From NCBI GenBank assembly GCA_039707465.1, contig CM077646.1, positions 75,602,715 to 75,666,714 on the forward strand: a stretch of DNA of 64,000 nt, read 5' to 3'. The notes beneath the pieces are model-generated. The model was not told where the DNA came from. It was given only the letters and a program-made list of their open reading frames with translations, and made no database searches. Within the stretch, counting starts at the first letter, position 1. The number at the start of each line of letters is the position of its first letter. A program made the position numbers and the translations under genes. Shown in pieces: positions 5,432 through 50,985 of this stretch. The stretch is from Rhabdophis nuchalis (lineage: Eukaryota; Chordata; Lepidosauria; Squamata; Natricidae).

Positions 5432-5649
5432 GTAAACCTCTTCATTGTTTCTTCCAAAATCTACCCAAGATTTTGTAACAAAAAGTTCATAAGCTGATTC
5501 CATTCTAAATTCATACTTGAGTAGACCCTAGTACTAAGAAACTCAGATATATCAGTCTGTATTTCATGTCTAATATTTCCTTACCAACAAAAGAAGCTAA
5601 AAAAAACCCTAGTAAACTTGTTTGAAGCATGAACTGTTCTGTTTGACCT

Positions 5650-6110
5650 AGTTACCTACGGGATCGCATCCTACCCCATACATCCCTGCGGCCGATTCGC
5701 TCCCACAGAGAGGGACTTCTCCGGGTGCCGTCCACTAGGCAATGCCAGTGGGCGACGCCCAGGGGAAGGGCCTTCTCTGTGGTTGGCCCAACCATCTGGA
5801 ACGACCTACCCCCTGAACTCAGAACGACCATGGACCTCCGTTCTTTCCGCCAGAAACTCAAGACTTACTTTTTTCAACAGGCCGGCCTGGCCTAATTCTA
5901 CCTAGCCTTTAGCCTGACAACAAATTGTTTTAATTGGTTTTTAAGGGTAATAGTTTTAATTTATTGTAAAGTTTTAGCACAGGGTTAATAATTTAATTTG
6001 ATGTTAAATTTTGTATATTGTCATGTTTATTTATGCTTTTTTAATTTCCTGTGCACCGCCCTGAGTCCCTTTTTGGGAAAGGGAGCGGTATATAAGTTTA
6101 AATATAACTC
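5650..6110 (+). mobile_element. L2 LINE 3'-end fragment
   Basis: It carries the C-terminal end of L2 ORF2 (words matching [11 protein letters not shown] and [11 protein letters not shown] of the copies at 12353 and 47812, with stops). The L2 3' UTR follows, ending in the gcgccgccctgagtcc-like hairpin and ggtatataa. It is diverged from the young copies. It sits in the DNAH12 intron between exons 5294 and 6324. Confidence 0.8.
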
Positions 6111-6323
6111 AAAAAACTCAAACTGTTAAATATATTAATATTAATGTGACTTTTCCATGTTTCTTTGATGTTCTTTGAAGTGAGCATTTCAGAACCCTGC
6201 TAGGAAAAACAGTCCAGTCTTGAAATATTGATACGCTTTTAATAGATCAAAACATTTAGAGAAGTTTAGAGAACACCTGAATATTGTTGTTCTCCACTCT
6301 TGAGTACTTTGTTTACATTTCAG

Positions 6324-6557
6324 CTATTTATAAATGAATATGAACACATCCCATTTGAAGCAATAACTTACCTTACGGGTGAGTGCAACTATGGAGGAAG
6401 AGTGACAGATGACTGGGACAGACGTCTACTACTGACCATGCTTGCTGACTTTTACAATACAGATATAGTGGAGTATTCAAATTATAGGTTTTCTCCCAGT
6501 GGCAACTATTACGCTCCCCCAAGGGGCTCTTATGATGATTACATTGAATTTATTAAG
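6324..6557 (+). CDS. DNAH12: DNAH12 coding exon
   Basis: Acceptor catttcag ends at 6323; donor gtatga starts at 6558. It encodes 78 residues including LTGECNYGGRVTDDWDRR, one of the best conserved C-terminal dynein motifs, and ends DDYIEFIK. Phase 0 at both ends. Confidence 0.96.
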
Positions 6558-6764
6558 GTATGATTTTACGTACAGGGTTCTTGTTTTTAAAAAGTGTTTT
6601 GCAAGCTAAATTCATCTTGAGCGCATTTCTATCTTTAGATACCTTTAATATATTATCTTTTTACTTTATAAAAAGCCACGCGTTGCTGTGTCCCAGTCTG
6701 GTAAAATGGCCAACCAATCTGTGTGTAGATCTACACCTGCACACATACACACAACCACCATATA

Positions 6765-7267
6765 ACCCCCAACCTACCTACCTACTGTATTTCCCCCTCT
6801 CTATCCCTCTACCTACCTACCTACTGTATTTCTCCCTCTCTCTCTATTCCTCTACCTACCTACCTACCTACTGTATTTCTCACTATCTATCTATACACCT
6901 ACCTACCTACCTACCTACGGTATTTCTCCCTCTCTGTCTATCCCTCTACTTACCTACCTACTGTATTTCTTGCTTTCTCCCTCTACCTACCTACCTACCT
7001 ACCTACCTACCTACCTACCTACCTACCTACCTACTGTATTTCTCCCTCTCTATCTATCCCCCTATCTACCTACCTGCCTACCTACTGTATTTCTCCCTAT
7101 CTATCTATCTATCCCCTACCTACCTACCTACCTACCTACCTACTATATTTCTTCCTTTCTCCCTCTACCTACCTACCTACCTACTGTATTTCTCCATCTC
7201 TATCTTTCCCCCTACCTACCTACCTTATTTCTCCCTCTCTATCTATCCCTCTATCTACCTACCTACC
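6765..7267 (+). repeat. Minisatellite of ctac and tctc/tatc blocks
   Basis: A higher-order array. Runs of (ctac)n alternate with an actgtatttctccctctct block and short (tatc)n runs, repeated about ten times with units of roughly 35-75 bases. The translated frames (YLPTYLP...) are artefacts. The same actgtatttctccctctc block reappears at 8415-8440 on the far side of the CR1/hAT block, so that block appears to have been inserted into the array. Confidence 0.85.
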
Positions 7268-8415
7268 GTAATACAATAGCAGAGTTGGAAGGGACCTTGG
7301 AGGTCATCTAGTCCAACTCCCTGCCTAGGCTCTCTCTGTCTGTCTCTCTGTGTGCAAGTCTCTCCCTCCCCCCCACCGAAGCAGCAGAAAGCCCAGCATG
7401 TCAGCGAGCCAGGAGCGGGCGGGCGGGTGCGGGGAGGACCGAAGGCTGCGGCTCCCTAAGCGCCGCCCAGTCCGTCCGGGCGCCGCACGCCCACCTCCCT
7501 CCCAGCCCGTGTGCCGGGCAGCCCTGGAAAGTGCCCCTCGGTGCTCTCTGTGGGCGGCTGTTGCTGCTGCTGCTGCTCCCGAGTCCTGCGACACGCAGTT
7601 CTCGCCGTCCGAGGTCGCCCGGCAGGCGCATCGGGCAGGACAGCCGGGCTGCTCGGACAGCGAGGGCAGAACAAGAAGCAATGGGTGGAAACTAATCAAG
7701 GAGAGAAGCAACTTAGAACTGTGGAGAAATTTCCTGACAGTGAGAACAATTAACCAGTGGAACAGCTTGCCTCCAGAAATTGTGAAGTTGTGAATGCCCC
7801 AACACTGCAAGTCTTCAAGAAGATGTTGGATAGCCATTTATCTGAAATGGTATAGGGTAGTGGTCGGCAAACCGCGGCTCGCGAGCCAGGAGTGGCTCTT
7901 TGGCCCCTCGAGTGTGGCTCTTCCTCCACCCAGCCATGGGCAGACTCTGGGAGCCGCACGCCCACCTTCCTCCTCCCCCAGCGAGCGGGCGCAGGGAGGA
8001 CCGAAGGCTGCGGCTCCCTAAGCGCTGTCTCTATCTACCTACCTACTGTAATACAATAATACAATAGCAGAGTTGGAAGGGGACCTTGGAGGTCATCTAG
8101 TCCAACCCCCTGCCTAGGCAGGAAGCCCTATACCATTTCAAACAAATGGCTATCCAACATCTTCTTAAAGACTTGCAGTGTTGGAGCATTCACAACTTCT
8201 GGAGGCAACTTCTGTTCCACTGGTTAATTGTTCTCACTGTCAGGAAATTTCTCCACAGTTCTAAGTTGCTTCTCTCCTTGATTAGTTTCCACCCATTGCT
8301 TCTTGTTCTGCCCTCAGGTGCTTTGGAGAATAGCTTGACTTCCTCTTCTTTGTGGCACCCCTGAGATATTGGAAGGCTGCTATCCTGTCTCCCCTAGTCC
8401 CTCTTTTATTAAACT
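7268..8415. repeat. Rearranged CR1 / GC-rich hAT block with a palindrome
   Basis: CR1 3'-end sequence appears three times: antisense at 7268-7330, sense at 7663-7853 and antisense at 8051-8415. The sense and last antisense copies share private variants (ctgtggagaaa, cagtgagaac), so they form a near-perfect inverted repeat. GC-rich segments at about 7393-7490 and 7978-8022 repeat each other directly (gaggaccgaaggctgcggct). The start of the last antisense copy also repeats the first one directly. The block looks like a local fold-back duplication. Confidence 0.7.
7859..8025 (+). mobile_element. hAT-like fragment (agtggtcggcaaaccgcggctc end)
   Basis: It starts agtggtcggcaaaccgcggc and continues tcgcgagccaggagtggctc. 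That resembles the 5' end of a vertebrate hAT family whose terminus reads cagnggtcggcaaac. The matching right terminus is not evident because the segment runs into the repeated GC-rich block. Partial copy. Confidence 0.5.
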
Positions 8416-9170: not shown

Positions 9171-9457
9171 GTAATATGAACAAGGTAGTATAGTATGTAA
9201 ATTATAATATAACTGCTTCAGAATTATTTTTCTGATGTTAGCCTAATTTGGTCTAATCTAATCTATATTGTTTAAAGCAGGGGTCCCCACCCTTTTTTGC
9301 ACCAGGGACCGGTTTCATTTTAAAGAAAACTCTGCGAACCGGCTGAGTGGCTCAGCAGTGATGTGACTGGGTGGGCGTGGCCAATTTGGAAAATGTGAAA
9401 CTCACTTAACAATGGTCTTGGTTAGCAACCAAACTTTTGGGCTCAATTGTGGTCATA

Positions 9458-9905
9458 AGTTCTCTCTCTCTCTCTCTTTCTTTTTCTTTCTGTCCTTCTG
9501 TCTTTCTTTCTTTCTTTCTCTGTCTCTTTCTTTCCTTCCCTCTTTCTTTCTGTTTCTCTCTCTATTTCTTTCTTTCTCTCTTTATTTTTTTCTCTTTCTC
9601 TCCCTCTTTCTCTCCCTCTTTCTCTCTCTTTCTCATTTTTCTTTCTTTCCTTCTTTCTCTCTCTCTTTATTTCTTTCTCTTTCTCCCTTTCTCTTTCCCT
9701 CTTTCTCTCTCCCTCTCTTTCTTTCTCTTTCTGTCTCTTTTTCTTTCTTTCCCTCTCTTTCTCTTTCTCTCTTTCTTTTTCTCTTTCTTTCCTTTGTCTC
9801 TTTCTCTTTTTCTCTGTCTGTCTTTTTTTCTCTCTCTCTCCCACTTTCTTTTTCTTTCTTTCTCTTTCTCTCTTTTTCTTTCTGTCTCTCTCTCCTTCGT
9901 CTGCC
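9458..9905 (+). repeat. Polypyrimidine (tttc/tctc)n tract
   Basis: About 450 bases of almost pure C and T on the + strand, interrupted by isolated G. Long translated frames here on both strands are low-complexity artefacts. The tract is internal to the hAT element at 9278-10601. Confidence 0.95.
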
Positions 9906-9915
9906 CATCTCTGTC

Positions 9916-9918
<3 letters not shown>

Positions 9919-9958
<40 letters not shown>
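9919..9958 (+). repeat. (GT)n microsatellite
   Basis: About 20 gt units. A second (GT)n run of about 14 units lies at 10025-10053. Both are inside the hAT element. Confidence 0.95.
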
Positions 9959-9959
<1 letters not shown>

Positions 9960-10020
9960 TCGCATTCAGGCACTTAATCACTCATTCTGTGCCTCTGTCT
10001 ATCTTTCTCTCCCTCCCTCC

Positions 10021-10056
<36 letters not shown>

Positions 10057-10609
10057 CACTCTCTCTGATTCCCTCCCACCCTGTCTCTCTCTGTGTCTAT
10101 GCCTCTCTCTTTCGGTCTGTCGTCGTCCCGATCCCCCCACCACCACGGAGACTCCTCAGCCCGGCTCGACTCGTTCACTAGCCTTAGCCTGCCCCGCCTG
10201 GGCGGCCGCTGCCGCGCTTGGTCCCTCGTGCGCTCGGTCAGGCTCCTTCCAGGAGCTAAGAAGGCTCCGTGGGGTGGGGGTGGGGGGGAGGAACCTCTGC
10301 AGGCTCTGGAAGAAGACGAGTGGGTGGCATGCCGGTTGGGGAAGCTCTGGGGGGGCAGGGAGGAAGGGAATCCGCGGGCGGTAGAGAGGGCTGTTGCTGC
10401 GGCGTGCAGGAGTCCCACCGTCGACAAAGGTGGAGGAAAAGGGGCACCCCAATCGCGCGAAAAGCCCTGCCTGCGCTCTCCCGCGTGCTCTGCCCAGGGG
10501 GCTGCCCTCTCCTCCCTCCTCCTCTTCTCCGGCCCTGCGGCCCGGCTCCTATTCAGCCACGGACCGGCACCAGTCCGCGGCCCGGGGGTTGGGGACCCCT
10601 GGTTTAAAG

Positions 10610-11776: not shown

Positions 11777-12026
11777 CAATTTAGACTTCTTTTTTTATAT
11801 TGAAAAAGTTTTATTGGTTTTTACAAATTTTTTAAGGTAGGGTAGGGGTAGGGTAAAATACAAAAATATTTTGAGAACTTTCACGTCGAGGTCGTCGGTC
11901 CCCCCGGGGCTACATAATAAGACATTGATAATACATTTTCCAATAATACTGCAATTCTAAATTCTATGCTGGCAATCGTGTACAAACATCCAGATAAAAA
12001 TTATACTGTATTAATAAAAAGGAAAG

Positions 12027-12352
12027 TCATTTTTTAGACCTAAGTCTCTTGGCAATTGTATCTTCTTGTTCTCCTTCCTGGCCCCCAGCGGGCGGGGCCG
12101 TGGCCCCCTCCGTCCCCCCTGGATCTTCCCCCAGGATAGAGGAATGTTTTTTAAGAAAGGCTTTCGCCTCAACAACTGTTTTAATCCTTACTCTTCCTTC
12201 ATCCCAGAACACCAACATCCCTTCTGGCATCGCCCACTTAAACCAAATCCCGTGGTTAAATAATTTTTTAGATAAGAAGGAATACTTCCTCCTCACCTCT
12301 CTAATCATTTTTGGGCTCTGTTTCAAGATGGCGACTTCCTTTTGTTGGTAAA
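12027..12352 (-). pseudogene. L1 ORF1 C-terminal domain part
   Basis: It continues the ORF1 reading frame of 16924-17449 exactly across the L2 insertion (…RPLV then YQQKEVAIL). It shows the typical L1 C-terminal domain: REVRRKYSFLSKKLFNHGI, then a beta-hairpin region with MLVFWDEGR and AKAFLKKHSS. It ends KRLRSKK with a stop at 12027. After it comes only the short 3' UTR, not ORF2. Confidence 0.8.
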
Positions 12353-13717
12353 GGAAGTCGGGTTTTGCGCGTGCGCGAGGAATGGCGCTGGCTTTTGAAT
12401 GCGGGAGCTCCCGGTAGGCTTTGGATGGCCTGGGAGGACGCTGCCGACCCTCTGTGACCAGCTTTGAGGGTCGGCCCAGCAAGTGAGACAGCCCGCCGTC
12501 ACATCGGGTGAGTTTGATGTTGAAGGGTGTGACGGCGGAGGTGGGAGAGCTTGGCGAGTTTGGGCGAGCGGCGTGGAGCGGAGCGGCCTGAAGCGGCCTG
12601 AGCGGCCTGAAGCGGCTGGCGTGGCTTTGGAGCGCGGCCCTTGGAGCGTGGCCCTGAAGCGGCCCCGAAGCGGCCTCGTAGCTCGCCCTGCAGTCCAGTG
12701 GAGAGACTGCGGTGAGCGACGGAAGACCTGAGGCCATGGGGGGTCGCGGCAAGTGGCGGTAAGCGGCAGGGGAGGCTTGGAACGGCCGGACGAGTGGCGA
12801 GTGGCAGAGCGACTCGGAATCGGCCTGGAACGTTGGCGGTGGCGTTGCCCCGGCGCGGCTGCGCTGAGCGGCTGAAGATCTGCGGCGGAGAGGCTACGGT
12901 GAGCGATGGCGAGCAGCGAGGAGGCCTGGAACGGAACGGCGTTGGCGCGGTCCCATCGTGGCCCTGGCGCGGCCGCGCAGCCCGGTAGAAGATCTCTGTT
13001 GAGTGGCGGGGAGCGGTTGGGCGGCCTGAAATGGCCCCGGCACCGGCGTTTGTCCCGGCACGGGCCGGAGTGGAACCAAGCCGACAGCTGGAGAGGAGCC
13101 TGGAGTGGTGTGCCAGAGACAGAGATATGGACTCATGGAGGGCTTTTGGACCATTCTCCCTCCTTATGAACAACTAGGCACAAATCCACTAACTTTTACC
13201 ATCTATGCGTACTATGATTCATCTTTATGCCCCCCCTCCCTTCCCCCTGGAAAAGATCTCTCCATCCCATGTGTTTTTAAATATCTTTCCTACCCGTCCG
13301 TCCTGTATATATTTTCGATCTGCACTGTCGCCACTTTAGTCGGGCTTGCTGTTGTATAATTTTATGCATTTTACCATCTTAAGCATGTTTACCATCTTTA
13401 GCGTTCCTCCTTTTATAGCCAGTGTGGCCTGGGAATGCTAGCGTATTCAAGGTTAGACCTTCTTTGCCTGCGGGAGTCTCCCCTCTCGCAGGCCTGGCCC
13501 CCGGGTCTAACACGGGCCCACCTCGAGGATGGATTGATTGATCCAGAGAGGTGGGCGCAGCGCAAACTTAGGGGGTTTTTAAACAAATTTTTAATTCGGC
13601 TTTTAAGGGGTTCTGGGGCGGGGGGAGGGCTCATTCAGTCAGGGGGGGGTCAAGATATAGGGCCGGCTGGCGGAAGTAGGATAAAGGAGGGGTCCATTAG
13701 GGAGGGGGGATTGGGGG
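12353..13717 (+). promoter_or_regulatory. L2 5' UTR with short GC-rich tandem repeats
   Basis: Very GC- and CpG-rich, opening ggaagtcgggttttgcgcgt. It contains tandem words such as gcggcctga repeated around 12580-12670, and similar motifs (gagcggc, gcggtgagcg) later. I see no convincing ORF1 in it. It may act as the element's promoter, which is inferred from position. Part of it could be a second nested insertion, since only the region from about 13740 on has a sister copy in the window. Confidence 0.5.
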
Positions 13718-16711
13718 TTGTCTCTTTTGAGGGCCATTCGATTGGTCTTGGGGAGGGGCAGGGGCGGTGGGAGGCAGGATGTCCATCGTGGGTTGGAGGC
13801 TCGTGGTCGCTGGTTACGAGCGGTCGCTTGCCCCAACCCCCTGTACTCCACTCGTGGGCTAGGCGGTCAGGGATTACAGAGCCGGCGGCCCAGGCTGATG
13901 TTCTGCAACGCCAGGTTCGTGGTGAACAAAGCCCCCCTCATAAATGACCTTGTGTCAGAGGGGGACCCGGACCTGGTGGGAATTACGGAAACCTGGTTGG
14001 GCCCCGAGGGGGGTTTACCCCTCGTGGAAATGTGCCCACCAGGCTACCGTGCATTTCATCGGCCTAGGGCCCTAGGCAGGGGTGGGGGGGTGGCGGTTAT
14101 TGTTAAGGAAAGTCTGGAGCCGAAGGAGACCACTGTGCCTCAGACGACCGGCTGTGAGTCCCTCTTCGTGAAATGGGGCCTAGGGAGGCAGTTGGGCTTG
14201 CTGCTTGTATACCTGGCTCCCCGCTATGTAACAGCAGCCCTGCCCGAGCTACTCGAGGTGATCGCCGCGATGGCGGTGGAGACCCCCAGACTTATAGTCA
14301 TGGGGGACTTTAACCTGCCATCGGCGGGCGAAACATCCGAGGTAGCTCGGGAGTTCATGGCTTCCATGACGGCCATGGACCTGACCCAAGTAGTTCAGGG
14401 CCCCACTCACGAGGGAGGACACACGCTGGATCTGATTTTTGTCTCTGGACACTGGATTAGTGATCTCGGAACAGGGGATTTAGTCATCTTACCCTTGTCA
14501 TGGACAGATCACTCTCTCCTTCGGATAGACTTTCCAACCGTCACACCTCACCGCGGGGAGGCGGAACCGGAAACACCTAGTTGGTTCCGCCCCAGGCGCC
14601 TGATGGACCCGGAAAGGTTCCAGAGGGAGCTTGGGCCAGTACCTGTATCCCTGCCCCGCGGCTCGACTGAGGACCTAGTGGCCGCGTGGTATAGTGCGGC
14701 CACGGGGGCCTTGGACCGAGTCGCGCCCTTGCGGCCTCTCATGCGGCGTCGAGTCACCCAGGCTCCTTGGTTTACCGAGGAGCTTCGGGAGATGAAACGC
14801 CGCAAGAGACGCCTAGAGAGTAGGTGGAGATCTTCTCGATCCGAAGCTGACCGAACACTAGTGAGAGACCATATTAGGACTTACTTAGTGGCGCTAAGAG
14901 TGGCCAAACGTGAGTATTGTGCCACCCTTATCGCGTCCGCGGAAAACCGCCCTGCCGCCCTGTTTGGGGTGACCCGCTCCCTCCTTCATTTGAGGCCGCG
15001 GGAAGCCCCTCTGCAGGGTCGAGCAGAGGAATTTGGAGTATTTCTGCAGGACAAAATCACTCAGATTCGGAACGAGTTGCCCTCCACTAGTGGCCCAGTC
15101 GGGGCGTCCGGTGCTGGTCTTGAGATAACACCTTGGGAGGAGTTCGACTTTGTTACTACCGAGGATATGGACAGGTTGCGGAGGAACCTTAGAGCCACCA
15201 CATGTTTATTGGACCCGTGCCCCTCCTGGCTTGTACTGGCATCCTGGGAGGTGACACGAGGCTGGCTCCAGGGCATTGTGAATTCATCTCTGAGTGAGGG
15301 GTACTTGCCCACCGTTTTGAAAGAGGCGGTGGTGAGGCCCCTCCTCAAGAAGCCATCCCTGGACCCGGCTTTATTAGAGAGCTATCGTCCCGTCTCCAAC
15401 CTTCACTTTTTAGTGAAGGTTGTTGAGAGTGTGGTGGCTCAACAGTTTCCCTGACATCTGGAGGAAGTTGATTATCTAGACCCGCGCCAGTCCGGCTTCC
15501 GGCCCGGTCACAGCACCGAGACGGCATTGGTCGCGTTGGTTGATGATCTCTGGAGGGCACGGGATAGAGGTTGTTCCTCTATCCTTGTCCTATTAGACCT
15601 CTCGGCGGCTTTTGATACCATCGACCATGGTATCTTATTGCACCGATTGGGGGGGTTGGGGTTGGGAGGCACCGTTCTACGGTGGTTCTCATCCTACCTC
15701 TCTGGTCGGTCGCAATGGGTGTTGGCAGGAGGGCAGAGGTCGTCCCCGAGGCCCCTCATATGTGGGGTTCCTCAGGGGTCGGTCCTCTCTCCCCTTCTGT
15801 TCAACACCTATATGAAGCCGCTGGGCGAGATCATCCGTGGTTTTGGGGTGGAATACCATCTGTACGCTGATGACACTCAGTTGTACATATCCACCCCAAA
15901 CCACCCCAACGATGCCGTCGAAGTGCTGTCCCGGTGTCTAGAGGCCGTACGGATCTGGATGGGTAGTAACAAACTCAAGCTCAACCCGTCCAAGACCGGG
16001 TGGCTGTGGTTTCCGGCACCCCGGTTCAGCCAGTTAAGTCCAACACTGGCCATTGGGGGCGAACAACTGGCCCCCGTGGAGAGGGCGCGCAACTTGGGTG
16101 TCCTCCTGGATTCCCGGCTGTCCATGGAGGACCATGTGGCGGCCGTGGCCAGGGGGGCGTTCTATCAGGTACGCCTGATACGCCAGTTGCGCCCCTTACT
16201 GGACCGGGGAGCCCTTCGCACAGTCACTCAAGCGCTTGTGACATCCCGGCTGGATTACTGCAACGCTCTCTACATGGGGCTCCCCTTGAGGTGCACTCGA
16301 AGGCTACAGTTAGTACAGAATGCGGCCGCGCGGGTGATTATGGGTGCCTCAAGGCAAACCCAAGTAACACCTCTCCTGCGCGAGCTGCACTGGCTGCCTG
16401 TGGCCTTTCGAGTGCGCTTCAAGGTGTTGACAACCATCTTTAAATCGCTCCATGGCTCGGGGCCTAGCTATATACGAGACCGCCTCCTGCCCCATACATC
16501 CCTTCGTCCGATCCGCTCCCACAGAGAGGGCCTTCTCCGGGTGCCGTCGACGGGGCAATGCCGGTTGGCGACACCCAGGGGAAGGGCCTTCTCTGTGGCG
16601 GGCCCGGCCCTCTGGAATGACCTACCCCCCGACCTTCGCACTATCTCGGACCTCCGTCTCTTCCGCCAACGTCTGAAGACGTATTTATTTCAACAAGCCG
16701 GCCTAGGATAG
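13718..16711 (+). pseudogene. L2 ORF2, endonuclease and reverse transcriptase, one stop
   Basis: The ORF2 polyprotein is one reading frame broken by a single TGA at 15452-15454. The APE endonuclease shows NARFVVNKAPLI, ITETWLG, MGDFNLPSAG, DLIFVSG and SDHSLLRIDF (TDHSLL). The reverse transcriptase shows [25 protein letters not shown] and the catalytic YADDTQLYI. The C-terminal part has [11 protein letters not shown] and [12 protein letters not shown] and ends QQAGLG. The first in-frame ATG is near 13894, so the true start is unclear. The sister copy reads CGA (Arg) at the stop position. Confidence 0.88.
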
Positions 16712-16923
16712 CCCCCTGTTCCTGACTTTTTTTAAAAAAATAAATAAATTATAATTTGGGAAGGTTTTTAACATGGGTTTTAGCACGGGTTAATCTAATT
16801 TAATATATTTTAAATTGATATTTATTGTATTTTTGTGGTTTTAATAATGCCTGTGCGCCGCCCTGGGTCCTAACAAGGAGAAGGGCGGGGTATAAATTTA
16901 ATAAAATAAATAAAATAAATAAA

Positions 16924-17449
16924 CTAAAGGCCTGTCTTTTTGCGCCTTCAAAATTCCCTCCCTGGTCGACCTTCTAACAAATTTAATATGTATCTCTCTG
17001 GGTACTTCATTTAACCTGGCATATGTTGAATTAATTTTATAGACTAGGTCAATGTCCCCCCTGATCTCCTCTTTAGGTTTATGTAAATAGTCTGCTAAAA
17101 TTGTACTCATGAGATCAGGAAGGCATTCACCAGTTTCCTCCAAAATATTCTGAAATCTTAAAAATTATGACATTCTTTCAAAATCCATCCTAGACATATG
17201 ACCAGACAAATCTGCAATTTCAGTGTTGACATTTTTAAGTTCTCCCTTCGCCCCAGCCAACCCCACTTCCAGATCTTCGGTCTTCTGCGTGTTCTCCATC
17301 AAATTTTTTTGTGTTTCCAAAAGTTCAAGTTTAGAGCTACACTGGTCTCTCCTCATCGCTTTAATTTCCAGCACCAAGGAGTTTAATGCTTCCTCCATCG
17401 CCGTCATTCTTTGTTCCAGTCCCGAATTCTCTGGTTGTTTTGAAGCCAT
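16924..17449 (-). pseudogene. L1 ORF1 N-terminal part (coiled coil and RRM)
   Basis: Nucleic-acid chaperone of L1 retrotransposition, here split by the L2. It starts MASKQPENSGLEQRMTAMEE, and residues about 10-90 form a heptad-rich coiled coil. One in-frame TAA lies at 17167-17165. The frame then continues with LRFQNILEETGE, the entry to the L1 RRM, and VPREIHIKFVRRSTREGILK. The frame is intact up to the L2 junction at RPLV. Without the stop and the insertion it would be about 283 residues, normal for a short L1 ORF1. Confidence 0.8.
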
Positions 17450-18324
17450 GATAACCTATTATAATCAGTGCCACTAAAATGGCGTTTTTTTGGGTGCGGC
17501 TGCTGGAACCAGTCAGGAGAAAAAAGTTCAGCTCAGAGTTGTAACCAGCTGTAGAGCCCAGAGAAGAAACAGTTCCACAGTCAATTGTTAAAAAAAGAGA
17601 AGGTATTCCAGGGAAGGAACCAGTTATTCCCAAAAAAAAATTTCCATTAGTAAAGAGACAGTCCAAATTACAAAGAAATGTTGGTGATTTTCCATAAAAA
17701 AATAGTCATTCAGGAACAAAGAGGAGCCATCTTCCACCGCCCAGCCAGGCAGCCAGCAGGAGAGAGTAAAAAAAGAAATTGTTTCAATAAAGCCGGACTT
17801 AGATACATTGTATAGAAACAAGCTGCAAATCACTTTCACTCGTTCCGCAAAAGTCCGGATGAGAAATATCCACTTCCTCGCAACGAGGAGCCATTTCTAA
17901 ACGCCGCTGTTATAAATCCGAGTGGTTTTTTAACAAACACCCCCCTCCACGTCTCTTCCAGTCCAAGCCGCCAGCAAAAAAAAGTTTTAAAGTCACTTAC
18001 TCTCCGCCCTGCATCTCAAGCCCCGGCAAAGCCATCCGACCTGAGCGCTCCGTTCTTTCCGAATCCTTTATTTACTGCCGTCCTCCGTTGGCGAAGGGAA
18101 CCAAACCCCCCACAGCATGTCTTCTTCCACCTGGACCGAAGACAAGGACCGTTCCTCTAGCTGCCGCCAGCAGAACCAATCCAGGCAAGCCAGCCCTACG
18201 GAAGGTCCCCCCCAAAAAGAAAAAAGGGGGGGCACCTCGCCCCGTTAGGGGCAGGAAAAAGAGCAAAACGGCGGACGAACCCCAAGGTTCATCCGTCGCC
18301 GCCAGAAGCCGGAACAGGAAGCCC
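17450..18324 (-). promoter_or_regulatory. 5' UTR of the HAL1-like element
   Basis: 875 bases upstream of the ORF1 start, GC-rich at the 5' end. It runs from the 15-base target duplication to the ATG at 17449-17447. L1 5' UTRs normally hold an internal Pol II promoter. I infer that role from position only and see no specific factor site. Confidence 0.45.
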
Positions 18325-18339
18325 CAATTTAGACTTCTT

Positions 18340-32885: not shown

Positions 32886-33672
32886 GGGGAGGGGGGGAGA
32901 AGGAGGGAGAGTAATCTATTCTACTTTGTGGTTTATCATATCTCTGATGAGAGAAACGTTTCTTTACTGTTTGTGAGATTCTGAGTTACTAGGTAGAAAA
33001 GTCTTCATCTTCAAAAACTATATAGAAAAAGCTTGTAGCTTTCTATGCACCATTCAGCTGCTGACATTGTCCTTTCTACACATCTGTGAAAGGACGTCTA
33101 TTATCTTCTGCATTTCACTGTCCTAGTCCTGTGACACAAAAACATTTGTAGAAGTTAGGCCAATTCATTGCGGGGGAGGGGGTGTTGTTGTATCTGTTTA
33201 ACATCTTTACAAGTCACATATCTTCTTCATGTTTTATGTGAGTATGAATATTCTGTTGGTATTAGAACAGTCTTCCAAAGCTAAGCTTTTGTATATATAG
33301 AAGAATATAGACCCGAATAGACTGGATCAACACCATTTTGTTTCTTTTGGACTGCCCTTACTGTCGCACCTTTAAGGAATTTATTCTTCTTTATAAAATT
33401 ACTTGAAATAATCAGCTTGCATTTGTCTCTCTCCCTTTCTTCTCCCATTTATTATTTTCTGAGATTTTTAAAGATTTCCCCCCCCCCCCCACTGAAATCC
33501 TTGTCTTTTTATATGCATTTTACTAAATGTCTAAAAAGTTGATAGTTGACGGAAACTCTTCTCACAGAAGCTTGCAACTCTTGCCTTTTTATGGTGATCT
33601 CATTGCCTTTTCTGGAAGGAAGCCCTGAGGTATGTCTGAAGGGTTTGAAAGAATGTTTATCTTTATCTTATT
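32886..33672. other. ASB14 intron 6, low-complexity patches only
   Basis: It has short G-rich (32884-32912) and poly-C (33479-33490) patches. I see no gene or transposon here. Confidence 0.5.
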
Positions 33673-33677
33673 GCTAG

Positions 33678-34221
33678 GGCTTTACAGATTTTTATTCCAG
33701 TCACAGATATCAGTGCCATAAAGGAGAGTGGAATCAGCCCACTTCACTCGGCAGCAGCAGGAGGACATTCTCAGTGTCTTGAATTTCTACTCAAATCTGG
33801 GTTTGAGGCTAATTTTATGTTGCATCGAAGAATTCAGAAAAACTACGATGATGAGAGAAGGTCAGCCCTGTATTTTGCAGTCTCTAATGGGGATATTGAG
33901 TCTGCTCATTTACTCCTGGATGCCGGAGCCCTACCAAATCAAGACCCTGTTAATTGCCTCCAAGTGGCCTTGAGAATGGGCAACTATGAACTCATCAGTC
34001 TCCTGCTTCGCCATGGAGCCAACGTGAATTACTTTTGTAGAGTCAATACAACCCATTTTCCATCGGCCCTGCAGTACACACTGAAAGATGAAGTCCTGTT
34101 AAGAATGTTGCTGAATTATGGATACAATGTTTCCCGCTGTTTTGATTGTCCTCATGGAGACAGCAAGCATTCCAAATACTTATTTGACGGGTGGACCTCA
34201 ACTGTTATCAAAGACACAATG
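33678..34221 (+). CDS. ASB14: ASB14 coding exon 7
   Basis: Acceptor attgctag ends at 33677; donor gtaagt starts at 34222. The largest exon encodes [60 protein letters not shown] and [20 protein letters not shown], the last ankyrin repeats. It ends [11 protein letters not shown] in phase 0. Confidence 0.96.
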
Positions 34222-34540
34222 GTAAGTACTTCCTGGGGGAGATTAATTCTTCCTTTATATGCTGATTGGTACTTATAAATTGCTCAGTGGGATTTGTTTG
34301 GTTTTCAAAACGGAAAAGGATCATAATCTTTAAACATGCATCAAGCAGAGACAGTCTATAGAATAAATGGCAAGTGTTCAATTATTTCAGAGGTGTCTGC
34401 TTGGTATTTTTGTGAAATTGTATTAGATGTATGGTTATTTTGCTTCATTTTGCTGCTGATTTAGCTGGGATGCATCAGGCATTTTATAATATAAGGCATT
34501 CAATGCTGTGTGCTCATGTTCTTATTTCTTTTTTTCTTAG

Positions 34541-43491: not shown

Positions 43492-43682
43492 CTCCGCTTG
43501 GACAAATATTAGACAGTTTTAAATGGGGGATTTTAATTTGGTTTTAGCGCAGGTTTTGTCATTTAATAGGTTTTTAAAAATTATATTTGGTGCTATTTTG
43601 TATGTTGTTTTAAATTCCTGTGCGCCGCCCTGGGTCCTCTCGGAGAAGGGCGGGATATAAATTGAATAAAAAAAAAAAAAAA
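43492..43682 (+). mobile_element. L2 LINE 3' UTR fragment
   Basis: It ends with tgtgcgccgccctgggtcct, then gagaagggcgggatataaat and an A-rich tail, the same 3' hairpin and tail as the long L2 copies. Only the 3' UTR is left. APPL1 intron. Confidence 0.8.
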
Positions 43683-45344: not shown

Positions 45345-47000
45345 ACTGAACATAATTACAAAGAATGAACAAATTGGTCTTGAGTCTGTCATCTGGGAAG
45401 AGTTCGATCCTGTGACTCCTGAGGACATGGACAGGATGCTGGGGCGGCTGAATGCCACCACATGTTTATTGGCCCCCTGTCCCTCCTGGTTGGTACTGGC
45501 CTCCCAGGAGGTGACACGAGGCTGGCTCCAGGGAATTGTCAATGCTTCTTTGAGTGAGGGGTTTCTGCCGGCCGCCTTGAAAGAGGCGGTGGTGAGGCCC
45601 CTCCTCAAGAAGCCCTCCCTGGATCCAGCTGTGTTGGCCAACTACCGTCCTGTCTCCAACCTTCGTTTTCTTGCGAAGGTTGTTGAAAGTGTGATGGCGC
45701 GACAGCTCCCTCAGCACCTGGAGGAAACTGTCTATTTGGACTCGCGCCACTCTGGCTTCCGGCCTGGGTACAGCACAGAGACGTCATTGGTCGCGTTGGT
45801 GGATGATCTCTGGAGGGCTCGGGATAGGGGTTGCTCCTCTATCCTGGTCCTGTTAGATCTCTCAGCAGCTTTTGATACCATCGACCATGGTATCATGTTG
45901 CACCGGCTGGAGGGGTTGGGGGGCACCGTTTTACAGGGGTTGGGTGAGATGATCCGTGGTTTCGGGGTAGAGTTCCATCAGTATGCTGATGATACTCAGC
46001 TGTACATCTCTACCCCGGGCCACCCCAACGATGCCGTGGAAGTGATGTCCCGGTGTCTGGAGGCCGTGTGAGTCTGGATGGGGAGAAACAGGCTCCGACT
46101 CAACCCGTCCAAGACCGAGTGGCTGTGGCTTCTGGCGTCACGATATAGCCAGCTGGTGCCATCGCTGGCTATTGGGGGCGAATCATTGGTCCCTACAGAG
46201 AGGGCTCGCAACTTGGGTGTCCTCCTGGACTCTCGGCTGTCCCTAGAAGACCATATGACAGCTGTAGCCAGGGGGGCTTTTTATCAGTTGCGTCCCTTTC
46301 TGGATCGTGACACTTTACGCACGGTCACTCAAGCCCTCGTCATTTCCCGTTTGGACTACTGCAACGTCTCTAAATGGGGCTTCCCTTGAGGTGCACCAGA
46401 GACTCCAGTTAGTCCAGAATGCGGCCGCGTGGAGGAGTCTGGGAGTGTCTAGATGCTCCTGCGTGACACCTCTCCTGCGCAAGATGCACTGGCTGCCTGT
46501 GGCTTTCCGGGTGCGCTTCAAGATATTAGTAACCATCTTCAAAGCGCTCCATGGCAAGGGACCTGGCTATCTGCAAGACCGCCTCCTGCTACCAAACATC
46601 TCCCACCGACCAGTCCGCTCCCACAGGGAGGGCCTCCTCAGGGTGCCGTCGGCCAGGCAATGCTGGCTGGCAACCCCCAGGGGGAGAGCCTTCTCTGTGT
46701 CAGCTCCTGCCCTCTGGAATGACTTACCCCCTGACCTACGGACAACCACGGACCTGCACCAGTTCCGTCGGTCCTTAAAGACCTATCTGTTTCGTGCAGC
46801 CGCCCTGGCGTAGTTTTTTAAATTGCTCTAGTTTTTAAATTGGTTTTAGTAAGGGTTTTTTAACTGGATTTAGATCAGGCCAATCCATTTAATATATTTT
46901 TAATTGTATTTTAATTGTATTTTATGCTCTATCTTATTGTTCTTATTATTGCCTGTACACCACCCTGAGTCCCGCAAGGGAGCAGGGCGGTCTAAAAATT
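45345..47000 (+). mobile_element. Older L2 LINE copy with reverse transcriptase deletion
   Basis: 5' truncated. Coding starts within ORF2 (LNATTCLLAPCPSWLVLASQ), with the RT motif [12 protein letters not shown] kept. It then jumps from GGTVLQ to LGEMIRGFG, so about 130 bases including the [13 protein letters not shown] motif are missing. A stop at 46069-46071 and a frameshift near 46375 follow. It ends with the 3' hairpin gagtcccgcaagggagcagg and a short atctaa-repeat tail. It is more diverged than the copies at 12353 and 47812. Confidence 0.85.
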
Positions 47001-47323
47001 TAATAAATCTAAATCTAAATCTAAAAGAACTGGGGAGTTCTTGCTGCTCCCTGGTTGTGAGAAGACATTTTATTACCCAACTAGGTAACTGACACTGATG
47101 ATGTTACTAAATATCTGCAAGCAAATAAGTAGAGAGCACCAAGAACTCCAGAGGTTCTTTGTAAGCTGCTTCCTGCTAATTCCACCTGCATGTTTATACA
47201 AAACCATCTCTTGGGTGGGGTGGAGTGGGGTGTTCTCCTTAAATGGATTTTCATATCCCTGATTTTCTCAGCTTTGGAATAGTTTAAAATACAAGAACGT
47301 TAACTGAAGCATAATGCATGTAC

Positions 47324-47470: not shown

Positions 47471-47811
47471 CTGTCCAGAGAGGAAAAGAATTGTCACTGA
47501 ATAACAGCAGTAAATGAAATTGCAGAAATATACTTTTGGATTATTAAAGTAAAAGCCAAAATAATTCATATTTATATTTCAGAAGAAGGTCGTTCTGACT
47601 CACCCTACTGACTTCTCAGCAAAGACCAGCTCTAATGCTAGTGCATTCTCAAAAGCTTTCAAATTAAGTTAGGCTTTCACAACTATTAGCAGGAATTCCT
47701 TACATATTTTTTCTAATTTACAGGCTAGAGCACCCACTTTTATAATATGTAGTTTCACGATAACTGAAATACTGTTTGGGGAACTGGATAACCTATAATT
47801 TTCTGTCGACT

Positions 47812-50800
47812 GGTCTTGGGGAGGGGCAGGGGCGGTGGGAGACAGGATGTCCATCGCGGGTTGGGGACGCGCGGTCGCTGGCTAAAAGCGGTCGCCTGCC
47901 CCAACCCCCTGTGCTCCACTCGTGGGCTAGGCGGTCAGGGACTACAGAGCCGGGGCCCTAGGCTGATGTTCTGCAACGCCAGGTCCGTGGTGAACAAAGC
48001 CCCCCTCATTAATGACCTTGTGTCAGAGGGGGACCCGGACCTGGTGGGAATCACGGAAACCTGGTTGGGACCCGAGGGGGGTTTACCCCTCGTGGAAATG
48101 TGCCCACCAGGCTACCGTGCATTTCATCGGCCTAGGCCCCTTGGCAGGGGTGGGGGGGTGGCGGTTATTGTTAAGGAAAGTCTGGAGCCGAAGGAGACCA
48201 CTGTGCCTCAGACGACCGGCTCTGAGTCCCTCTTTGTGAAGTGGGGCCTAGGGAGGCAGTTGGGCTTGCTGATTGTATACCTGGCTCCCCGCTATGTAAC
48301 AGCAGCCCTGCCCGAGCTACTCGAGGTGATCGCCGCGATGGCGGTGGAGACCCCCAGACTTATAGTCATGGGGGACTTTAACCTGCCATCGGCGGGCGAA
48401 ACATCCGAGGCAGCTCGGGAGTTCATGGCTTCCATGACGGCCATGGACCTGACCCAAGTAGTTCAGGGCCCCACTCACGAGGGAGGACACACGCTGGATC
48501 TGATTTTTGTCTCTGGACACTGGATTAGTGATCTCGGAACAGGGGATTTAGTCATCTTACCCTTGTCATGGACAGATCACTCTCTCCTTCGGATAGACTT
48601 TCCAACCGTCACACCCCACCGCGGGGAGGCGGAACCGGAAACACCAAGTTCGTTCCGCCCCAGGCGCCTGATGGACCCGGAAAGGTTCCAGAAGGAGCTT
48701 GGGCCAGTACCTGTATCCCTGCCCCGCGGCTCGACTGAGGACCTAGTGGCCGCATGGTATAGTGCGGCCACGGGGGCCTTGGACCGAGTCGCGCCCTTGC
48801 GGCCTCTCATGCGGCGTCGAGTCACCCAGGCTCCTTGGTTTACCGAGGAGCTTCGGGAGATGAAACGCCGCAAGAGACGCCTAGAGAGTAGGTGGAGATC
48901 TTCTCGATCCGAAGCTGACCGAACACTAGTGAGAGACCATATTAGGACTTACTTAGTGGCGCTAAGAGTGGCCAAACGTGAGTATTGTGCCACCCTTATC
49001 GCGTCCGTGGAAAACCGCCCTGCCGCCCTGTTTGGGGTGACCCGCTCCCTCCTTCATCTGAGGCCGCGGGAAGCCCCTTTGCAGGGTCGAGCAGAGGAAT
49101 TTGAAGTTTTCCTGCAGGACAAAATCACTCAGATTCGGAACGAGTTGCCCTCCACTGAAAGTGACCCAGTCGAGGTGTCCGGTGCTGGTCTTGAGATTAC
49201 ACCTTGGGAGGAGTTTGACTTTGTCACTACCGAGGATATGGACAGGTTATGGAGGAACCTTAGAGCCACCACATGTTTATTGGACCCGTGCCCCTCCTGG
49301 CTTGTACTGGCATCCTGGGAGGTGACACGAGGCTGGCTCCAGGGTATTGTGAATTCATCTCTGAGTGAGGGGTTCTTGCCTACCGTCTTGAAAGAGGCGG
49401 TGGTGAGGCCCCTCCTCAAGAAACCATCCCTGGACCCGGCTTTATTAGAGAACTATCGTCCCGTCTCCAACCTTCACTTTTTAGTGAAGGTTGTTGAGAG
49501 TGTGGTGGCCCAACAGTTCCCTCGACACCTGGAGGAAGTTGATTATCTAGACCCGCGCCAGTCCGGCTTCCGGTCCGGTCACAGTACCAAGACGGCATTG
49601 GTCGCGTTGGTGGATGATCTCTGGAGGGCTCGGGATAGAGGTTGCTCCTCTATCCTGGTCCTGTTAGACCTCTCAGCGGCTTTTGATACCATCGACCATG
49701 GTATCTTATTGCACCGATTGGGGGGGTTGGGGCTGAGAGGCACCGTTTTACGGTGATTCTCGTCCTACCTCTCTGGTCGGTCACAATGGGTGTTGGCAGG
49801 AAGGCAGAGGTCGGCCCCGAGGCCCCTCACATGTGGGGTTCCTCAGGGGTCGGTCCTCTCGCCACTTCTGTTCAACACCTAGTTGAAGCCACTGGGCGAG
49901 ATCATCCGTGGTTTTGGGGTGGAGTACCATTTGTACGCTGATGATACTCAGCTGTACATATCCACCCCAAACCACTCCAACGATGCCGTCGAGGTGCTGT
50001 CCCGGTGTTTGGAGGCCATACGGGTCTGGATGGGTAGTAACAAACTCAAACTCAACCCGTCCAAGACCGAGTGGCTGTGGTTTCCGGCACCCCGGTTTAG
50101 CCAGATAAATCCAACACTGGCCATTGGGGGCGAACATCTTGCCCCCGTGGAGAGGGCGCGCAACTTGGGCGTCCTCCTGGATTCCCGGCTGTCCATGGAG
50201 GACCATGTGGCGGCCGTGGCCAGGGGGGCGTTCTATCAGGTTCGCCTGATACACCAGTTGCGCCCCTTACTAGACCGGGGGGCCCTTCGCACAGTCACTC
50301 AAGCGCTCGTGACATCTCGGCTGGATTACTGTAACTCTCTCTACATGGGGCTTCCCTTGAGGTGCACTCGAAAGCTACAGTTAGTGCAGAATGCGGCCGC
50401 GCGGGTGGTTATGGGTGCCTCAAGGCAAGCCCACGTAACACCTCTCCTGCGCGAGCTGCACTGGCTGCCTGAGGCCTTTCGAGTGCACTTCAAGGTGTTG
50501 ACCACCATCTTTAAATCGCTCCATGGCTCGGGGCCTAGCTATATACGAGACCGCTTCCTGCCCCATACATCCCTTCGTCCGGTCCGCTCCCACAGAGCGG
50601 GCCTAATCCGGGTGCCGTCGGCTGGGCAATGCCGGCTGGCGACACCCAGGGGAAGAGCCTTCTCTGTGGCGGGCCCGGCCCTCTGGAATGACCTACCCCC
50701 CGACCTTCGCACTACCTCGGACCTCCGCCTCTTCCGCCAACGTCTTAAGACGTACTTATTCCAACAAGCCGGCCTAGGATAGCCCCCCGCTTCTGACTTT

Positions 50801-50985
50801 TAAATATAAATTATAATTTGGTTACGGTTTTAATAACGGGTTTTAGCACGGGTGAATTAATTTAATATATTTTTAATTGATGTATATTGTATTTATGGTT
50901 TTATATAATGTCTGTGCGCCGCCCTGGGTCCTAACAAGGAGAAGGGCGGGGTATAAATTTAATAAAATAAATAAAATAAATAAAT
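47812..50985 (+). mobile_element. Young L2 LINE copy, 5' truncated
   Basis: Nearly identical by eye to 13740-16919. It starts at ggtcttggggaggggcaggg, lacks the long GC-rich leader, and ends in the same 3' hairpin and aataaataaaataaat tail. It lies in the APPL1 intron between exons 47324-47470 and 51073-51109, in the opposite orientation to the gene. Confidence 0.92.
47816..50782 (+). pseudogene. L2 ORF2 of the young copy, two stops
   Basis: One frame throughout, with a TGA at 49754-49756 (TGG in the other copy) and a TAG at 49880-49882 (TAT in the other copy). Endonuclease motifs NARSVVNKAPLI, ITETWLG, GDFNLPSAG and TDHSLL are intact. Reverse transcriptase motifs [12 protein letters not shown] and YADDTQLYI are present, and it ends QQAGLG. 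The position that is TGA in the first copy (15452) is an intact Arg codon here. Confidence 0.9.

Follow-up and report, generated by a model that had tools for sequence, protein, structure and literature searches.

In the window, that is, the whole stretch of 64,000 nucleotides of Rhabdophis nuchalis DNA analysed here, a minus-strand unit at 11792-18324 is made up of a 5' UTR, an ORF1 and a 3' UTR and is interrupted by a nested L2-type LINE. An L1-type ORF1 that runs into a 3' UTR with no ORF2 in between raises the question of whether this locus holds a privately deleted L1 or one copy of a family that exists as ORF1 alone. Such an ORF1-only life-style has so far been described mainly from mammals. 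The passages on HAL1 in PMC5322556 portray the mammalian elements as carrying ORF1 alone, ending in poly(A), flanked by target duplications and dependent on L1 reverse transcriptase and endonuclease, and quote nearly 2,100 copies for human. According to the lines on HAL1 in PMC5753468, these elements arose several times in mammals; the section on mammals of PMC8535693 gives HAL1 as active in rat, and PMC4161310, where it touches on the subject, holds that L1 likely serves HAL1s. A half-L1 in a squamate was not found in the titles and abstract openings of the open literature searched, and an entry in Repbase or Dfam, which lie outside that search, is possible. The terms HAL1 and ORF1 do not occur in a squamate survey of over 60 species (PMC6050309), and in PMC8535693, which contains both 'half-L1' and 'squamate', the mention of HAL1 concerns rat.

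Layout of the interrupted element

The two ends of the unit are marked by the exact 15-mer CAATTTAGACTTCTT, which lies at 11777-11791 on the element's 3' side and at 18325-18339 on its 5' side, in agreement with the perfect 15-bp target duplication first noted. These are its sole matches in the window at up to two mismatches; in a shuffle control, 9 of 100 shuffles contained at least two such matches (mean 0.48). Taken alone, the repeat is modest evidence; its position on either side of a unit that belongs to a repeat family is strong evidence. The sense-strand cut site of this copy is TT|AAGA, the kind of site that is cut by the L1 endonuclease.

The proposed minus-strand order of 5' UTR, ORF1 and 3' UTR agrees with the coordinates determined here. 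The 5' UTR is 875 nt long (17450-18324), and 24 of the 39 other copies fetched from the genome start within its nt 1-7, at 93-98% nucleotide identity. ORF1 starts with a coiled-coil-like N-terminal part at 17168-17449, which was placed through the reading frame, a domain scan and the fetched copies, and its RRM part at 16924-17164 was placed by comparison with the fetched copies and the homologue P0001 described below. The single in-frame stop of this copy separates the two at 17165-17167 (17167-17165 as read on the minus strand), where it had been reported once the nested L2 was set aside. The 3' part of ORF1 (12027-12352), comprising the C-terminal domain and the basic tail ...TIAKRLRSKK, is 97-99% identical at the nucleotide level to most fetched copies. 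The 3' UTR (11792-12026), 235 nt long with AATAAA, a short A tail and the terminus AATAAAACTTTTTCAATATA, is present in 39 of the 39 other fetched copies; it falls 28 nt short of the 263 nt typical of most copies, and 27 nt of this difference form one gap. A stretch at 11833-11857 is rich in C when read in the sense direction (ACCCTACCCCTACCCTACC), with its opposite strand G-rich and telomere-like, and recurs at the same place in other copies of family A and, shorter, of subfamily B.

The LINE nested within ORF1 occupies about 12353-16923 on the plus strand, with edges uncertain by a few bases. It yields matches to PF03372 (7.7e-15) and PF00078 (3.2e-30), with one in-frame stop separating the endonuclease part and the reverse transcriptase (RT) part, and we take it to be an L2. 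A clear long duplication was looked for at its flanks, given edges placed to within a few bases, and none was found. No L1 ORF2 was seen in the window unit when five frames were scanned, and endonuclease and RT domains were confined to the L2 frames, which upholds the earlier claim that ORF2 is absent. A second LINE copy at 47806-50984 of the window is 95% identical to the nested one, and further pieces of this type lie at 5647-6124, 43528-43680 and 45375-47007. Elsewhere in the window, long low-complexity tracts that are open in several frames were observed at 6557-7279 and 9367-10384, and an exon-like open frame with ankyrin-like repeats at 33649-34278, perhaps an ASB gene.

A multi-copy family with its own insertion marks

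The 3' UTR was used as the query against the 1.918 Gb assembly, which gave 3,308 candidates; the best 40 were scored and the 39 besides the window copy were fetched. In all 39 of these best-scoring copies the same ORF1 end precedes the 3' UTR, which is about 263 nt long in most of them. There are some exceptions in detail around the junction: L024 has a repeat of about 70 nt from the end of ORF1 between ORF1 and the 3' UTR, the 3' UTR of L046 lacks its first 26 nt, and those of L045 and L047 contain an insertion. Several of the 39 copies are 5'-truncated, the extreme being L020 with 35 nt of ORF1 left. A 30-mer that takes 26 nt from the end of ORF1 and 4 nt from the 3' UTR was then counted across the genome with up to two mismatches allowed, resulting in 2,649 + 2,679 = 5,328 places compared with 0 for the reversed control. 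Since this 30-mer counts ORF1 ends and not the junction, 20 further places with an exact match were read, and in all 20 ORF1 runs into the same 3' UTR. Altogether, 59 of the 59 other copies read (39 + 20) share the junction and none has ORF2 after ORF1, in two draws that were both anchored in this part of the element, at the end of ORF1 or in the 3' UTR; the pattern behind the 20 copies includes 4 nt of the 3' UTR. The snake genome holds thousands of copies of this ORF1-only element. RAG1 agrees with a snake host, and with the squamate named at the outset: a 1068-aa RAG1 frame of the assembly shows 97% identity to the cluster named Pantherophis guttatus, 95% to Crotalus adamanteus and no more than 85% to the listed lizards, which points to a snake that is probably an advanced one. 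As a separate observation, the ORF1-end pattern occurs at G000:C8:53538546, 53546215 and 53553884, at a spacing of 7,669 bp, with another at 53533112; the evenly spaced copies look as if the element had been duplicated in tandem along with its surroundings.

Target duplications were examined by script in a set of 38 copies that excludes L045 and the window copy, with a threshold of at least 13 nt and at most one mismatch. Flanking duplications were detected in 32 of 38 copies, versus 0 of 114 mismatched flank pairs, while in the other 6 no duplication of at least 13 nt was detected. Together with the common junction, this bears out the suggestion that the structure might be multi-copy. A strict cut site, T(T/C)|AA(A/G)A, fits 18 of the 32 duplicated copies and does not fit 14. 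At the other end, the 39 fetched copies terminate in CAATAAAACTTTTTCAATA or a near variant followed by A's, and the exact 17-mer terminus is present in 17 of the 20 further copies.

Divergence from the column majority, measured over ORF1 and the 3' UTR outside CpG, is 0.2-1.8% in 30 of the 39 copies, the remaining 9 having been dropped as they are all 5'-truncated within ORF1 and were force-aligned over flanking DNA. An intact ORF1 of 283-284 codons that reaches its normal end is retained in 7 of 39 (L018, L019, L024, L034, L039, L042 and L044). Because the 39 copies are those that score best against the window's own 3' UTR, youth and intactness are biased upward in this set, which represents the young end of the family.

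Other ORF1 copies, with 73-85% nucleotide identity, were found in L013, L015, L016 and L045. L045 holds a complete subfamily-B unit of about 1,984 bp with a 5' UTR, an open ORF1 of 282 amino acids and a 3' UTR, inserted in a family-A copy, within its 3' UTR; a duplication of about 18-20 nt accompanies the insertion, and the copy in L015 is similar to this unit. Group C, the third, consists of the copies in L016 and L013; ORF1 of L016 is followed about 260 nt further on by a terminus of this kind, and in L013 the family-A copy cuts the 3' UTR short. Two further subfamilies therefore share the ORF1-only layout, each with its own diverged UTRs that have like 5' and 3' ends, and the ORF1-only state predates their split. 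With the ORF1 of L019 as the reference (Nei-Gojobori, stops and gapped codons excluded), dN/dS was 0.256 for L045, 0.28 for L015, 0.151 for L016 and 0.204 for L013, at dS of 0.42-1.39. Since a single copy also carries changes from neutral decay that followed its insertion, the true dN/dS between subfamilies is probably lower than these values. Among five young copies dN/dS ranged from 0.17 to 1.29 on 1-6 synonymous changes and is uninformative. The low values between subfamilies indicate constraint on ORF1 during the time in which the layout consisted of ORF1 alone. The lineage had been conjectured to be ancient, and two further ORF1-only subfamilies at synonymous distances of 0.42-1.39 support that.

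The ORF1 protein and the resident L1 elements

In the Pfam search ORF1 gave no match above the cut-off and no direct match to PF02994, and single ORF1 pieces compared with Pfam and PDB returned nothing convincing; the tie to L1 comes only from relatives and a profile. A read-through query against a protein library of 5.8 billion entries, under word and length limits, recovered only P0001 (78%) and P0002 (66%). P0001 is a homologue of 199 amino acids on a 793-bp ENA contig with 78-79% amino acid identity to the window copy; P0002 comes from a 583-bp ENA contig, and both group with subfamily B, not with family A. They could represent the lineage in another animal or in the same one. A profile search added 8 L1-type proteins at 28-33% identity, with snakes among the sources. 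No ORF1 relative was found in prokaryote genome contigs or viral contigs.

Profile A3, whose six rows are five from ORF1-only copies and a single one from a resident L1 ORF1, matches human LINE-1 ORF1p chains, namely 2ldy (E 4.9e-6), 2ykp, 2yko and 2w7a. A structure model of P0001 (pLDDT 74.8) gave human LINE-1 ORF1p for all of its top 12 fold matches, with TM-scores of 0.38-0.61 by query length and 17-22% identity; 8 of the 10 alignment rows behind this model are L1 ORF1s and the model leans on them, and an earlier model built from two sequences was too poor for use. As modelled, the ORF1 protein resembles human LINE-1 ORF1p, with an RRM followed by a C-terminal domain. The P0001 model and profile A3, whose alignments both contain L1 ORF1s, thus agree with the original assignment of an L1-type ORF1 carrying these two domains. 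In L1 ORF1 proteins the N-terminal part is a trimerising coiled coil; here the scan for it gave weak below-cut-off matches only, some of them to coiled-coil families.

To look at autonomous elements in the same genome, an RT query was taken from L011 and 150 of 47,473 candidates were scored. The choice of query confines the RT matches to a single L1 group, and 7 of the 150 scored matches sit in open frames of 1,332 codons. Three L1 RT matches with equal open-frame length lie about 32.2 kb apart, at G000:C4:185032981, 185065208 and 185097448, and are probably a tandem array. The group, represented by L011, L060 and L061, is filed as L1-type by the name of the relative P0009, by its RT domain and by PF02994 at 14.3 bits, against a cut-off of 22.4. 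L060 and L061 each have a 1332-codon open frame holding ORF2, in L060 behind a frameshifted ORF1 and in L061 in a 5'-truncated copy. The resident ORF1s align with the ORF1-only protein over the RRM and C-terminal domain, at 26-32% identity (tblastn, 11 loci). In a tree with 13 resident and other L1 ORF1s, including snake ones, the ORF1-only proteins formed one clade (100/100), and the branches joining it to the others measure 2.1 and 1.2 changes per site, a length that may be misleading.

L060 has a TT|AAAA target and shares with the ORF1-only family the 17-nt terminus AATAAAACTTTTTCAAT directly before its poly(A), and in L061 the longest shared terminal stretch, likewise directly before poly(A), is 12 nt. 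Seventeen matches in fixed register have a chance of about 3e-10, and against ORF2 the longest stretch matched by this 3' UTR is 10 nt. The shared end surrounds the poly(A) signal and could be convergent. Beyond this 3' terminus, blastn of the family UTRs and ORF1 against 14 resident-L1 loci (L048-L061) revealed no similarity; the sole other nucleotide match was in L048, which itself contains an ORF1-only copy. Between the 5' UTRs of L019 and L060, no run of identical bases exceeds 9 nt. A match of the UTRs to a resident autonomous L1, which had been considered at the outset, was thus lacking in the group examined, except for the last 12-17 nt before poly(A).

Origin, mobilization and meaning of the family

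The resident L1 group is like the ORF1-only family in its RRM and C-terminal alignment and, for L060, in the 3' terminus with poly(A) and in the target, and it differs in that L060 and L061 carry ORF2 and that the UTR sequence before the terminus is unrelated at blastn level. There is also a likeness to HAL1: in the snake family, too, ORF1 is present and ORF2 absent in a repeated unit (59/59 copies read), with a poly(A) tail, target duplications (32/38 vs 0/114) and many copies. It differs from HAL1 in its snake host, in an ORF1 that forms its own clade apart from the L1 ORF1s compared, and in UTRs whose common sequence with the examined resident L1 group is limited to the final 12-17 nt. HeT-A of Drosophila likewise has a gag-like ORF only, with RT supplied in trans, whereas it is a telomeric element of the Jockey clade. 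The snake family works like a HAL1; we did not file it as a HAL1 in the strict sense because descent by loss of ORF2 was not seen in the single resident L1 group that served to test it.

Only one copy lies in the window, which would fit a private loss of ORF2 from an ordinary full-length L1 at this locus; the junction common to 59 of 59 other copies refutes this reading, leaving it a negligible probability. The poly(A) tails, duplications and L1-type sites would look alike if the copies were processed pseudogenes, spread by L1, that stem from an ORF1 gene domesticated by the host, comparable to mammalian L1TD1. We regard such an origin as very improbable, since intact ORF1s are kept in dispersed copies, the UTRs, alike at their 5' and 3' ends, have diverged from one subfamily to another, and one whole subfamily-B unit is nested in a family-A copy; parallel subfamilies would not be expected from the processed pseudogenes of one gene.

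A more serious alternative is that a full-length sister L1, with this type of ORF1 and an ORF2, exists or did so recently, and that the ORF1-only copies are its internal-deletion derivatives and hence strict HAL1s. The several origins of HAL1 reported in the pertinent lines of PMC5753468 and the L1-like 3' terminus speak for it, but ORF2 followed ORF1 in 0 of the 59 copies read, ORF1 identity is only 26-32% in the resident L1 group examined, and the two further subfamilies are also ORF1-only, so that the state is older than their split. We consider this origin unlikely; the chance it keeps is owed to how the copies were sampled and to a survey that covered a single L1 group.

Taken together, the window unit is probably a broken copy of a long-lived, recently active, high-copy ORF1-only L1 lineage that is mobilized in trans by a resident L1. 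Mobilization in trans by L1 is suggested by the L1-type target sites and by the 3' terminus shared with the resident L1. RNA would start at the element's own 5' UTR, and ORF1p translated from this RNA may coat it in cis. The RNA could then be taken up in trans by the ORF2p of a resident autonomous L1, which would cut sites such as T(T/C)|AAAA or AAGA and prime on the poly(A), and the shared terminus AATAAAACTTTTTCAAT is a likely contact point with the L1 machinery. With more reserve, we lean slightly towards a fuller reading, in which the family would be an ancient snake clade of ORF1-only L1 parasites that has passed through several subfamilies, its ORF1p acting on its own RNA under purifying selection and its 17-nt shared 3' end gripping the L1 machinery, and not a recent deletion product of an L1.

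The question at stake is why a LINE parasite that needs a borrowed ORF2p retains ORF1. Because young copies with intact ORF1 share the genome with resident L1s that have a long open frame for ORF2, the cis-preference of ORF1p and the recognition of the 3' end are directly testable in this snake. These results extend the half-L1 life-style outside mammals and suggest that it can persist through several subfamilies.
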